Origin: a virus
Length of the DNA stretch: 31,735 bases
Strand: one strand, 5' to 3'
Virus record (IMG/VR): IMGVR_UViG_3300010334_000176
Coordinates: 1 to 31,735 of that record
The notes beneath the pieces are model-generated. The model searched no databases. It saw only the letters and a program-made list of their open reading frames with translations, and had not been told where the DNA came from. This document shows, piece by piece, positions 16,779 through 21,776 of this stretch (its first letter is position 1; each line of letters starts with the position of its first letter). Made by a program: the position numbers and the translations under genes.

Positions 16779-17426
16779 TCACAAATTGGCGGCTACAAAT
16801 TCTTTTGAGCCAATTTTTGTTGCCTTCCCGTCCAATACATATTGAATGTTCTTGCCCTTGTTGAGCGCCCACTCGACCATCCAAGATAGCATCTGGGTGC
16901 TCAGTGTTTTGCCACATTCCGTAACATCAAAATACTCAAACCCTTTTTGTTTGCGCTCCGTAACTATTGCGTTGCAAAGGTCTGGGCGCATCCACATGGG
17001 CAAATCATCTGATGCAAGCCAGTGGCATTTGTAAGTTGTACACGGATTAACCGGCCTGTTTTCGTAAATGGTGCAGTTCTTTTGAAGATAAAAGCAAGAC
17101 TTGCCCTGCCCAAATGAATGCCCGTAACTATCTGCTGACATCCATGTACAGCATTGATTGCAGTCATCACACTTGCGTTCAGTCTTTGCCTCAACTTCCG
17201 AAATAATTGCCGTTGAAGTTTCTCGGTTAATACTCAGTTTGCCAAAACACAAAATGTTGTAGTCGTTTCCGTTTTTGTCTTTTTCGCTGGTTACCCCGGT
17301 CATTATGTTCAGGGTTTTGAACAGGTATTCTTTTTTGTCGTTCTCAAACACGCGCCAAACGTGTTCTTCAGAACCACGCCCCGGTTGCCCACGGCTCTTA
17401 TTGAACCGGATGCTGTATTTGTTCAA
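16779..17426 (-). CDS. CxxCxxCC (YkgJ-like) putative metal/Fe-S-binding protein
   Basis: 215 aa. The start is a TTG at 17426 overlapping the upstream TGA (TTGA) with GGAGG just before it. The N-terminal YSIRFNKSRGQPGRGSEEHV motif belongs to the family, so the next downstream Met would cut into the domain. Residues 1-75 are a strand-rich module typical of cyanophage homologues. Then comes the zinc/iron-chelating CxxCxxCC signature: Cys86, 89, 92, 93, with further Cys at 111, 118, 129 and 134 in the order C..L, C.IY..RP..PC and KCHW. The family is thought to bind metal or an Fe-S cluster. The gene is coupled directly to a 2OG-Fe(II) oxygenase, suggesting a joint modification function. Confidence 0.75.
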   Translation of the reverse strand: MNKYSIRFNKSRGQPGRGSEEHVWRVFENDKKEYLFKTLNIMTGVTSEKDKNGNDYNILCFGKLSINRETSTAIISEVEAKTERKCDDCNQCCTWMSADSYGHSFGQGKSCFYLQKNCTIYENRPVNPCTTYKCHWLASDDLPMWMRPDLCNAIVTERKQKGFEYFDVTECGKTLSTQMLSWMVEWALNKGKNIQYVLDGKATKIGSKEFVAANL

Positions 17427-18118
17427 ATGACCTCCACAACGGACTCATTGGAACAAACAGGCTGCGCTCCGTAACGCACCCCGATAGTAAAGTGAATGAA
17501 CCGTATGGGTTCGTCTGAGCCATGTCGCGTAAACGAATGCGGCAACCAAGAGTTGGTGAACATCAGCATTCCCGGCTTTGGCTCAAAGTTCACCATATTA
17601 CTGGCTGGCGTTATGTTTCTTAGGTCGTTTTCAGGAAGGTTGATTTGAACCTTGCCTATGCGTGGGTCATGCAGCACCGGACGGGAGCCGTTTTCTGGCG
17701 TATCAATAAAGTAAAACCCAATCAACTGTGCGCCGTTGGCATGAACGTGCTGGTCCATCCCAGAGTGCTTGTAATGCTCTTGGCACCAAAACTCATGGAA
17801 TGTGGTGTTCATTCCATAGGTTGCGTACCCTTGGTCACGGAGAATCTGCCAAGAAGTTTCCCCAATGAACGTCATTAGTTCAGATACCCGTTGGTCTTCA
17901 AACAAATTGTCCGTCATCCAAACCGGATAAAGTTCGTGCGTTTCTGTTTTTACTTCTTTTTTTGCAGCAAGTGCATCAAGACAAGCTGGTTTTACCTTTG
18001 TAAGAAACTCTGGCTTTTGAATTGTGTAAACAACTGTTGGGAAATAGGCCTCCGCTTTTATTTGACCAAATTCTGGTTTTTCAACGTCAACCACTTCCGG
18101 TGAGGTAATCGTACACAT
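17423..18118 (-). CDS. 2OG-Fe(II) oxygenase-like protein
   Basis: 231 aa. The second half has the double-stranded beta-helix pattern of 2-oxoglutarate/Fe(II) dioxygenases of the type-5 phage family. It contains MDQHVHANGAQLIGFYFIDT (His124/His126 as metal-site candidates), then NFEPKPGMLMFTNSWLPHSF (His194 as distal iron ligand) and EPIRFIHFTIGV (Arg206 as likely 2OG carboxylate contact). The first 110 residues hold PTVVYTIQKPEF, similar to cyanophage homologues. Such enzymes hydroxylate proteins, nucleobases or small molecules; the substrate is unknown. It directly follows fibre genes (TAATG at 18118). The region is AT-richer than the rest of the window, which suggests separate acquisition. 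Confidence 0.78.
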   Translation of the reverse strand: MCTITSPEVVDVEKPEFGQIKAEAYFPTVVYTIQKPEFLTKVKPACLDALAAKKEVKTETHELYPVWMTDNLFEDQRVSELMTFIGETSWQILRDQGYATYGMNTTFHEFWCQEHYKHSGMDQHVHANGAQLIGFYFIDTPENGSRPVLHDPRIGKVQINLPENDLRNITPASNMVNFEPKPGMLMFTNSWLPHSFTRHGSDEPIRFIHFTIGVRYGAQPVCSNESVVEVI

Positions 18119-18639
18119 TATTGGCCTACCTCAACCCACGAAGATGTATAAAAATCTAATTGGTATTGTTTGCCATCTTCCGGTTTTATTGGCCTATCAA
18201 CCCAAGAGTTTGATGCACCATGCCAAATTACTTCTCGGTCAGTTGGCCTTGGTATTGGCGGTTCGTATTGAATAGTCTCTTCATTAAACGTCCATGCCGC
18301 AAAATTGTCTCTCTGCCGTAAAGAAGCCCACCATGCCTTGTAATCATCAATGGCTTTTTGGTGAAATTCCAATTCTTGCGCTTTTTGTCGCTCCCGTTTT
18401 TGTTCTTGCTCTTCTGCAGTCAATTCTCTAATTTGAAATATATCTGTCCATACCCCGTTAATATTGTCATACACAACGTGAGGTTCTTCAAAGGCTTGAT
18501 TCCATTCAAGTGTAGGGTGCTCCACTCGAACAAAAGGTTCCCATCCTTCTGGAACCAAACCAAATGCTTGAATAAGATTATCTTCAAAAGCAGGATGGTT
18601 AATTGGTTGACCGTTTTTAACTTGGATATACAGGTTCAT
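18118..18639 (-). CDS. Hypothetical tail-fibre-associated protein, 173 aa
   Basis: The start is the ATG in ATGA at 18639, overlapping the stop of the Gly-rich adhesin. The order is MNLYIQVKNGQPINHPAFED, then an EGWEPFVRVEHPTL strand pair, NGVWTDIFQIREL, a charged helix (TAEEQEQKRERQKAQELEFH), and a C-terminal part with PPIPRPTDREVIWHG and QYQLDFYTSSWVEV. This pattern (N-terminal NG.P..HPA.E.N, central W.D......T.EE, C-terminal W.G....W) is common in aquatic phages beside fibres and resembles tail-fibre assembly proteins. It may be a chaperone for the adhesin just upstream. The function is not proven. Confidence 0.55.
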   Translation of the reverse strand: MNLYIQVKNGQPINHPAFEDNLIQAFGLVPEGWEPFVRVEHPTLEWNQAFEEPHVVYDNINGVWTDIFQIRELTAEEQEQKRERQKAQELEFHQKAIDDYKAWWASLRQRDNFAAWTFNEETIQYEPPIPRPTDREVIWHGASNSWVDRPIKPEDGKQYQLDFYTSSWVEVGQ

Positions 18640-19460
18640 GGTGCGCCCACGCAAGTTGATGGGAATTTACGGGTCGTGCCGGGCCATACAATCCTTAATG
18701 CAGGACCTCCGGGGCTTCCGCCAACTCCGTTGCCTGTGCCTGCTCCGCCTCCTCCGTAAACTCCACCAGCATTGGTAACTCCATTGGTTCCGCCAGACCC
18801 GCCATAACCCCCTGCCGCACCGCTGCAACCTTCTCCGTAAAGACCAACTCCGCCCCCTCCTTGCGCCGCATTCCCGCCACCGCCACCGCCACGACCTCCC
18901 GCAGTGGCGGGAGCGCCACAACATATTGGACCGGCACAAGGACAACAAAAATACACATGCCAATAACCAGCACCTCCTTGATACGAACTTGAGTACCCTC
19001 CTGCTCCACCCCCCCCAGACCGGTCGCAAGAAGAATAGGCGGAGTTTCCGCCGGGCGAGGTGATTTGGCCGACAACGCACCCTAAGCTAGTCCCCCCATA
19101 TAAACTCCGCGCACTAACTACAACCAATCCGGGGGTAGAAACTGTATTACATATAAAAGAAGACCTAGTAGAAGTGCAATTAGAAGTAGCCGAAAGGGTA
19201 ACGCAATAACCTTTGCCGGGAATTACAGAAATGTTATTTCTCCAACCTAGCGCCCCTCCCCCACCTCCAGACCCATATTGTTTTCCTTTAGATGTTCCTT
19301 GGCAAGTCGTTCCCCCGGAAGAAACAATAACAGCAGAAACAGAAGTAACTCCAGCCGGGGCTACCCAAGTATAATTACCAATTGCTGTATAACTAGCAGA
19401 ACCCGCCCCGGTACCAAAACTCCGTTGGTTCTGAAAGACTGCTTGTTGTACGCCACTCAT
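18636..19460 (-). CDS. Glycine/cysteine-rich tail adhesin, 274 aa
   Basis: The start is the ATG in ATGA at 19460; the longer frame begins inside the preceding gene. The N-terminal part is beta-rich (GNYTWVAPAGVTSVSAVIVS, typical of phage fibre tips). From about residue 65 on it is dominated by glycine runs (GSGGGGGALGW, GGRGGGGGGNAAQGGGGVGL, GGVYGGGGAGTGNG), like the polyglycine-II sandwich of distal adhesins. Unusually it also carries many cysteines, including YFCCPCAGPICCGAP near residue 180. The C-terminus is ALRIVWPGTTRKFPS. It is probably the receptor-binding tip. A 2OG oxygenase and a CxxCxxCC protein are encoded just downstream. Confidence 0.65.
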   Translation of the reverse strand: MSGVQQAVFQNQRSFGTGAGSASYTAIGNYTWVAPAGVTSVSAVIVSSGGTTCQGTSKGKQYGSGGGGGALGWRNNISVIPGKGYCVTLSATSNCTSTRSSFICNTVSTPGLVVVSARSLYGGTSLGCVVGQITSPGGNSAYSSCDRSGGGGAGGYSSSYQGGAGYWHVYFCCPCAGPICCGAPATAGGRGGGGGGNAAQGGGGVGLYGEGCSGAAGGYGGSGGTNGVTNAGGVYGGGGAGTGNGVGGSPGGPALRIVWPGTTRKFPSTCVGAP

Positions 19461-20235: not shown

Positions 20236-21423
20236 TTAGAATGTGCCGCCGGTGACGCCATACGCAGTCCCGGTCCCGCCTCGATTGGTTGCAACAATCA
20301 CACCATTCCATGTCGCAGATGTGATGGATCCGGGGTAGTCAAATGTATTTGTTGACCAAGATACGTTACTAGGTGATTGATCGTGCCGGTCCCATGTCCC
20401 TGCGGCCGTTCCATTTGCAATCAACACAACCGTGGTATACCCGCCAGACGGAACAGAAACAACCAACGTGCTTGAATTGTTGTTAACTGTAATCGCGCCA
20501 GAACTCTGATTGTTGTTAAACGAAAATATCGTCCCCAACGGCAGCGTCGTTGCATCCGGCAACTTGATGATTTGTCCGCCAGAACCTGAAACCAAATAGA
20601 CCGGCGTAGACGCTACAGTCAACGTAATCAAGGTTCCCGACGCTGCTACGGTTGTAAACCCGTTGAAGTAACCATTGGCCGTAATATTGTTGTTGGCGTC
20701 CCTCAACGTTACCGAGTTGGCCCCGCTTGATGCCGTAACCCCGGTTCCTCCGTTGGCCACCGCCAAAGTTCCTGCCAGCGCTACAGCACCAGCGGTTGGG
20801 GTGTTTGGGGTCAACCCAGTAGTACCGCCGCTAAAGGTTGAAACCCCTGTGCTTGCCCCTGCAGCCCAAACAGCAGTTCCGCCGCTAACCGTCAAAACAT
20901 AACCGTTAGTGCCAATCCCTAACCTTGTTGCGCTATTTGCGCCGTTGCCAACGATCAGATCGCCCGTAGAAGTAATCGGGGACAGGGCATTAAACGCCGC
21001 TCCTGCGGTTGTTTGGCCAGTTCCGCCGTTGGCTACGTTCAGCGTCCCCGCAAGCGTTACAGCGCCCGCGGTGGCCGTTGCAGGGGTTAATCCAGTCGTC
21101 CCGCCACTTAGTGTCGTAACCCCACTGGCAACACTTCCATTGCTCGCAGACGTGATCTGTCCCTGTGCATTGACCGTAATATTGGCCAACGTGTAACTGC
21201 CGGCCGTTACCGCTGTAGTGGCTAAGGAAATAGTACCGGTTGTCGTTATCGGGCCGCCCGTCAATCCGGTTCCGGTCGATACTGATGAGACACCACCAGC
21301 GGTGGCACCAATAGCACCAGAGGTCGTCCTAACGGTCTGTCCGTTCTGGACAATTGGTACAACCTCGCTACCAGTAAGAGCACCGGCTGCAGGTAAATTT
21401 GTTATCGTGACTTGTGCTGACAT
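20236..21423 (-). CDS. Tail fibre protein with NGGTG repeats, 395 aa
   Basis: It starts at the TAATG overlap with the zinc-ribbon-like gene. The N-terminal TITNLPAAGALTGSEVVPIV is a fibre-attachment motif shared by many phages. Then follow GTVS-type repeats, two NGGTGQTT/NGGTGVTA-type motifs, and a 122-aa module (residues about 253-374) shared with the 473-aa fibre. The C-terminus is NRGGTGTAYGVTGGTF. Beta-strand-rich Ser/Thr/Gly composition fits a trimeric fibre. Confidence 0.75.
   Translation of the reverse strand: MSAQVTITNLPAAGALTGSEVVPIVQNGQTVRTTSGAIGATAGGVSSVSTGTGLTGGPITTTGTISLATTAVTAGSYTLANITVNAQGQITSASNGSVASGVTTLSGGTTGLTPATATAGAVTLAGTLNVANGGTGQTTAGAAFNALSPITSTGDLIVGNGANSATRLGIGTNGYVLTVSGGTAVWAAGASTGVSTFSGGTTGLTPNTPTAGAVALAGTLAVANGGTGVTASSGANSVTLRDANNNITANGYFNGFTTVAASGTLITLTVASTPVYLVSGSGGQIIKLPDATTLPLGTIFSFNNNQSSGAITVNNNSSTLVVSVPSGGYTTVVLIANGTAAGTWDRHDQSPSNVSWSTNTFDYPGSITSATWNGVIVATNRGGTGTAYGVTGGTF
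20302..20667 (-). repeat. Fibre module copy 2, 366 bp (122 aa)
   Basis: This stretch and 27290-27655 encode matching 122-residue modules (from FNGFT to SATWNG) with no insertion or deletion and 17 amino-acid differences by eye. Differences are spread out, as expected of an old duplication or repeated exchange rather than an assembly artefact. Confidence 0.85.
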
Positions 21424-21776
21424 TACTCTTGGCTCGGTGGGCTGGGAGCGATCGTATCCAAATTGCCGTTATTCGTAGGCACTTGCGAGTTGCCCTCCAA
21501 CGAAATCTGGAACTGATTGCTACCCTCGGTCAATAGGTAATCATCGTTTGCGGCCACGCTCACGTCAGGACGCGGGAACCTGATTGTAATTCGCTCCGTC
21601 TTTCTTGCTGGTAACCGATACGGGTCAAACTGATCAGCACACCCGGTATCGCAAACCTGCAGGCCCGGAAAGTTTGGATCCGGCCGCAACACAGAGTGAG
21701 GATATTTGAGACGGCACCGATCGCAGATTGCGATTGCAATGTCAGAATACCCACGAGTGTCAAGGAAGCGTGGCAT
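21423..21776 (-). CDS. Zinc-ribbon-like small virion-region protein, 117 aa
   Basis: 117 aa beginning MPRFLDTRGYSDIAIAICDR. Cysteines at 18, 21, 42 and 46 (CDRC, then CDTGC) look like a small zinc ribbon. LPARKTERITIRFPRPD follows, then a polar C-terminal tail. Proteins with this layout are found beside tail-adaptor genes of environmental phages. It adjoins the adaptor gene (21777) and overlaps the fibre gene by TAATG. The function is unknown; it may be a structural or assembly protein. Confidence 0.6.
   Translation of the reverse strand: MPRFLDTRGYSDIAIAICDRCRLKYPHSVLRPDPNFPGLQVCDTGCADQFDPYRLPARKTERITIRFPRPDVSVAANDDYLLTEGSNQFQISLEGNSQVPTNNGNLDTIAPSPPSQE

Follow-up and report, generated by a model that had tools for sequence, protein, structure and literature searches.

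To our knowledge, no substrate is known for the 2OG oxygenases of cyanophages and pelagiphages. These enzymes (phrog_81/PF13759) are of the same family as the oxygenase described here and likewise lie behind Gly-rich tail proteins, sometimes two or three in tandem, but were found without the 77-aa partner protein that the relatives of the phage analysed here have almost invariably. In the parts of the Pam3 report drawn on here, a Gly-rich tail fibre (gp24/gp25) is built with a separate chaperone, to which the 173-aa protein of our locus can be likened (PMC9608196). Like the adhesin described here, this fibre and the gp38 adhesins of S16/T2 have a Gly-rich distal receptor-binding domain; the excerpts of the two reports used here describe no associated oxygenase, and adhesins of the present type differ in being Cys-rich (PMC9608196, PMC12892980). 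A third comparison is with FliB, the flagellin lysine methyltransferase, whose CX4CX3CC motif binds a 4Fe-4S cluster and was likened by its authors to PF03692, making it a Cys-cluster protein that serves the modification of a surface filament protein (PMC8598068). The Cys-motif domain of our locus differs from FliB in its size (about 138 aa), its CxxCxxCC spacing, the lack of any demonstrated SAM-binding part and its link to a 2OG oxygenase. We therefore use FliB as an analogy, in that Cys clusters can serve surface-filament modification, and not as a family to which the domain would belong.

The window analysed here is the whole of a 31,735-base virus record, whose structural, lysis and tail genes mark it as that of a tailed phage. 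Four genes on its minus strand run without a break from 19460 to 16779 and overlap at ATGA, TAATG and TTGA junctions, just as the first-pass annotation had described them. In the order of transcription they encode the following, the last gene being divided into its two domains:

18636-19460, minus strand: Gly/Cys-rich tail adhesin, 274 aa, with a C-terminal RIVWPGTTRKFPST motif, recognised by composition, its 13 Cys and phrog_4474 (E 6e-29)
18118-18639, minus strand: 173-aa protein encoded between adhesin and oxygenase, position conserved; putative adhesin assembly chaperone
17423-18118, minus strand: 2OG-Fe(II) oxygenase, 231 aa, PF13759 (37.7 bits) and phrog_81, with H124, H126, D151, H194 and R206 conserved
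17196-17426, minus strand: N-terminal domain of the fusion, a 77-aa all-beta (predicted) partner protein, encoded on its own after the oxygenase in relatives
16779-17195, minus strand: C-terminal CxxCxxCC domain of the fusion, eight conserved Cys, phrog_9155 (E 4e-26)

The gene for the Cys-motif protein as a whole (17426-16779, minus strand) encodes 215 aa from a TTG start, which is supported by its first residues, MNKYSIRFNK, aligning with the N-termini of related proteins. Just upstream of the fibre genes the window also encodes a small protein (21423-21776) with four Cys arranged as CxxC...CxxxC, for which no family match was obtained.

The adhesin is as Gly-rich and as unusually Cys-rich as had been noticed from the sequence at the outset, with 27% Gly and 13 Cys in 274 aa, or 47 Cys per 1000 residues. 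This Cys richness is no fluke of the window, since the median over 105 related adhesins is 22 Cys per 1000 residues versus 8 for the remaining ORFs in these loci (P 2e-34, a value that is indicative only, the ORFs being mechanically called and some of the sequences related). Judged against this set of other ORFs from the same loci, Cys richness may be a property of the adhesin type and not of the gene cassette. The C-terminal 20 residues are kept in several of the loci L006-L013. The window adhesin gave no match to PF21722 (Gly_rich_2) even at E 1, staying below the cut-off, and its positional equivalents in L064, L082, L043 and L125 passed the cut-off; the equivalents in the L188 group carry collagen-like GNPGNAG repeats. 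As queries in cultured phages, the adhesin, its N-terminus and its 173-aa neighbour returned zero matches.

A protein was counted as Gly-rich if any 120-aa window reached 30% Gly or more, and was sought within 4.5 kb upstream of the small gene that encodes the 77-aa partner elsewhere. Of the 97 non-redundant loci that extend far enough upstream, 87 had one, versus 13 of 66 downstream controls. Nine of the 97 had no upstream Gly-rich ORF even when the threshold was lowered to 25%. In 72 of 112 relatives the 173-aa protein likewise stands between the adhesin and the oxygenase. It has no Pfam match of its own in a Pfam scan, and the equivalent place in the L188 phage is held by a Phage_tail_APC protein (E 3e-15). 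Because the Gly-rich fibre of Pam3 with its separate chaperone offers a precedent (PMC9608196), we read the 173-aa protein, by analogy, as probably the assembly chaperone of the adhesin.

The 2OG oxygenase call was confirmed by PF13759 (2OG-FeII_Oxy_5; E 2.7e-9, 37.7 bits versus a cut-off of 27), although the score for TIGR02466 fell short of its cut-off (43.2 versus 62.5 bits). The nearest solved structures are 3bvc and 2rg4, both of which have the aligned H, H, D and H. Among 68 relatives H124, H126 and H194 are present in all 68, D151 in 66 with E in the other two, and R or K at position 206 in 65. Replacement of the iron ligands had been named as a sign of an inactive enzyme; in the window protein the putative iron-ligand and 2OG-binding positions (HxH, D, H and R/K, here H124, H126, D151, H194 and R206) are all intact.

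The last gene had been taken for a YkgJ-like protein, but it is not simply that: the CxxCxxCC motif is confined to residues 78-215, residues 1-77 form an unrelated, phage-only domain, and PF03692 gave no significant match. We regard the 215-aa gene as a fusion of two genes since the 77-aa domain and the 138-residue CxxCxxCC domain are separate neighbouring genes in other phages. In L002-L004, L006-L018 and the Manatee Spring phage MW202545 the former has its own gene, about 80 aa long, next after that of the oxygenase; the latter lies just behind the small gene in L116, L186 and L188-L190. The fusion itself was found in a single phage population, made up of the window and contig L001, which are 100% identical over 10,469 bases.

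Scans of IMG/VR recovered at least 560 oxygenase relatives and at least 584 small-gene relatives. The small gene directly follows a 2OG gene in 116 of 127 non-redundant copies, with a 4-nt overlap in 88. In the other direction, 118 of 135 oxygenase genes have the small gene directly behind them; because either gene could serve as the seed for a locus, the two counts are not independent. Ten of the remaining 11 small genes have an oxygenase 0.6-4.3 kb away and the last lies on a short contig with 3 kb of upstream sequence. All 77 loci that were newly added by seeding with the small gene contain an oxygenase. Thus the two-gene unit predicted by the first-pass annotation is conserved across phages, but it consists of the oxygenase and the 77-aa protein, not of the oxygenase and the CxxCxxCC protein. 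L151, L156, L160, L164 and L166 carry a second oxygenase, of the PKHD/YbiX type (PF13640), between the 2OG gene and the partner gene (e.g. L151:5417-6001), as seen by sequence in L151 and L164 and by the same spacing in L156, L160 and L166.

The small protein belongs to no Pfam or PHROG family, and a search of 84,980 bacterial and archaeal species genomes gave pattern matches but no relatives; it defines an undescribed protein family. For structure prediction the two domains of the fusion were folded apart. The AlphaFold2 model of the 77-aa protein is confident (pLDDT 91.6) and all-beta. Its predicted fold had no convincing match in the PDB (the best being VIA, Z 2.1) and in BFVD matched small viral predicted domains and no others. 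Among these is part of B2ZYE1 (E 1e-4), a protein of Ralstonia phage phiRSL1 named APS kinase, a likeness between predicted models hinting that the domain may be joined to other enzymes too.

In the phage set, the CxxCxxCC domain has eight invariant cysteines (C9, C12, C15, C16, C34, C41, C52 and C57), comprising the motif and four further Cys. PF03692 did not match the window protein at E 1e-3 in the genome search or at E 1 in the Pfam scan. A distant relationship is nevertheless likely from sequence, because the relative in L115 borders the cut-off of 23 (23.9 bits in the genome search, 21.1 in hmmscan); membership is not claimed. The structure model has a pLDDT of 67 overall, is poor in the Cys half and gave weak PDB matches, the best with Z 4.8 over the C-terminal half. 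As the conserved partner of the oxygenase the domain was ruled out, being adjacent in one of the 77 loci that the small-gene seed newly added; it is a rare add-on to the oxygenase-partner pair. It does however lie beside or near PF13759 oxygenases in several unrelated phages, namely L116, the L188 group, L024 (the marine single-cell virus AG-345-E08) and L028, and it does so in S-SRM01. A link between the domain and the Cys content of the adhesin was looked for and rejected (24.9 versus 21.9 Cys per 1000).

The coupling of the oxygenase to a Gly-rich adhesin proved strong and extends to cultured marine phages. The pelagiphages HTVC023P and HTVC033P encode several Gly_rich_2 proteins followed by oxygenases, in S-ShM2 three oxygenases close a Gly-rich fibre region and in Syn30 a weak Gly_rich_2 match directly precedes one oxygenase. 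These cyanophages and pelagiphages with a Gly-rich tail protein and an oxygenase yielded no 77-aa partner gene. The support that had been sought from T4-like cyanophages for a unit of 2OG oxygenase and CxxCxxCC protein fails as stated, as no such unit was seen in S-ShM2, S-CAM1, Syn30 or S-IOM18. The CxxCxxCC gene lies within the gp45/gp44 replication cluster of S-ShM2 and S-CAM1, tens of kb from any 2OG gene found, and about 3 kb from one in Syn30; no such 2OG gene was found in S-IOM18. Genes annotated as ferrochelatase adjoin the 2OG or CxxCxxCC genes of HTVC023P (gp67, L225:10302-10922) and S-ShM2 (L020:5574-6119), an annotation that looks doubtful; they had no Pfam match at E 0.01.

We propose that the locus is an adhesin-maturation cassette in which the Gly-rich adhesin is modified by the 2OG oxygenase and its 77-aa partner while the tail is being assembled, a reading that we favour tentatively and rate a little short of an even chance. 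The order of the genes points to the adhesin as the candidate substrate. The adhesin would be made, folded with its 173-aa neighbour, probably a chaperone, and oxidised by the oxygenase before joining the tail. The 77-aa beta-domain protein would be an obligate partner in this step, as a substrate-presenting or activating subunit. The likeliest chemistry would be hydroxylation of Pro or Asn residues within the Gly-rich lattice of the adhesin, since Lys is scarce there. The fused CxxCxxCC domain of this phage, a putative metal or Fe-S domain, would probably supply electrons or iron or make a second modification. That the oxygenase and the CxxCxxCC protein might modify the neighbouring fibre or adhesin had been suggested from the window alone; the linkage of oxygenase and adhesin partly supports that idea, but the conserved partner of the oxygenase is the 77-aa protein. 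No report of hydroxylation of a phage adhesin was found in the literature searched. The recurrence of the oxygenase-partner unit in more than 100 other virus contigs suggests that phages may chemically modify the protein with which they grip bacteria. If the adhesin is hydroxylated, phage host range would gain a layer of post-translational chemistry. Through its near-invariant link to a small phage-only protein and to a Gly/Cys-rich adhesin, this oxygenase has a concrete candidate substrate. A bolder version, which we consider doubtful, is that the 77-aa domain acts as an adaptor bringing interchangeable enzymes (2OG oxygenases as neighbours, the CxxCxxCC domain by fusion) to the Cys-/Gly-rich adhesin in a dedicated modification system.

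Alternatively the oxygenase could be an auxiliary metabolic or host-modifying gene acting on a host small molecule, glycan or lipid, for example in decoration of LPS or capsule, its place in the tail region reflecting the accumulation of accessory genes there. PHROGs files phrog_81 as moron/AMG, the CxxCxxCC and 2OG genes of L024 and S-SRM01 sit among glycosyltransferase-like, sulfotransferase and sugar epimerase genes, and in a jumbo-phage survey a cyanophage cluster with 2OG enzymes was suggested to decorate the capsule or to make a secondary metabolite (PMC7824862). We give this a minority chance; against it, the tight order of adhesin, chaperone-like gene, oxygenase and partner repeats at many independent loci. 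It is also possible, though unlikely, that the oxygenase and its partner form a functional unit with an unrelated job and are kept near the adhesin by the exchange of tail-fibre cassettes; fibre regions are hypervariable, so neighbouring genes can be passengers, and the partner gene with a 2OG gene (126/127) comes closer to universal than the adhesin with the pair (87/97). However, linkage to a Gly-rich tail protein repeats in the cyanophages and pelagiphages that yielded no partner gene. The oxygenase of the L188 group has moved upstream of the adhesin with the partner still downstream, all within a few kb. That the CxxCxxCC protein serves to supply the oxygenase with iron or redox power and is not a modifying enzyme is improbable: its eight conserved Cys, its fusion here to the partner of the oxygenase and its overlap in L024 with a DUF6445 gene that lies two genes away from a PF13759 oxygenase would fit such a role, but most oxygenase-partner pairs do without it and in some cyanophages it lies far from any 2OG gene.

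Certain repetitive, Cys-rich or clustered genes were encountered at related loci. Directly downstream of the cassette in L189 (5738-10749) are two long ORFs with SGYSGISGYSG-type repeats, apparently repetitive tail proteins. In S-CAM1 (L213/L217, about 182-184 kb) a 299-aa ORF adjoining Gly_rich_2 matches has 84 Cys per 1000 residues, which is extreme for a phage protein. The marine virus AG-345-E08 (L024:4124-7812) clusters a PF13759 oxygenase, a glycosyltransferase-like gene, DUF6445, the CxxCxxCC gene and a PF13640 oxygenase in what looks like a surface-modification island.
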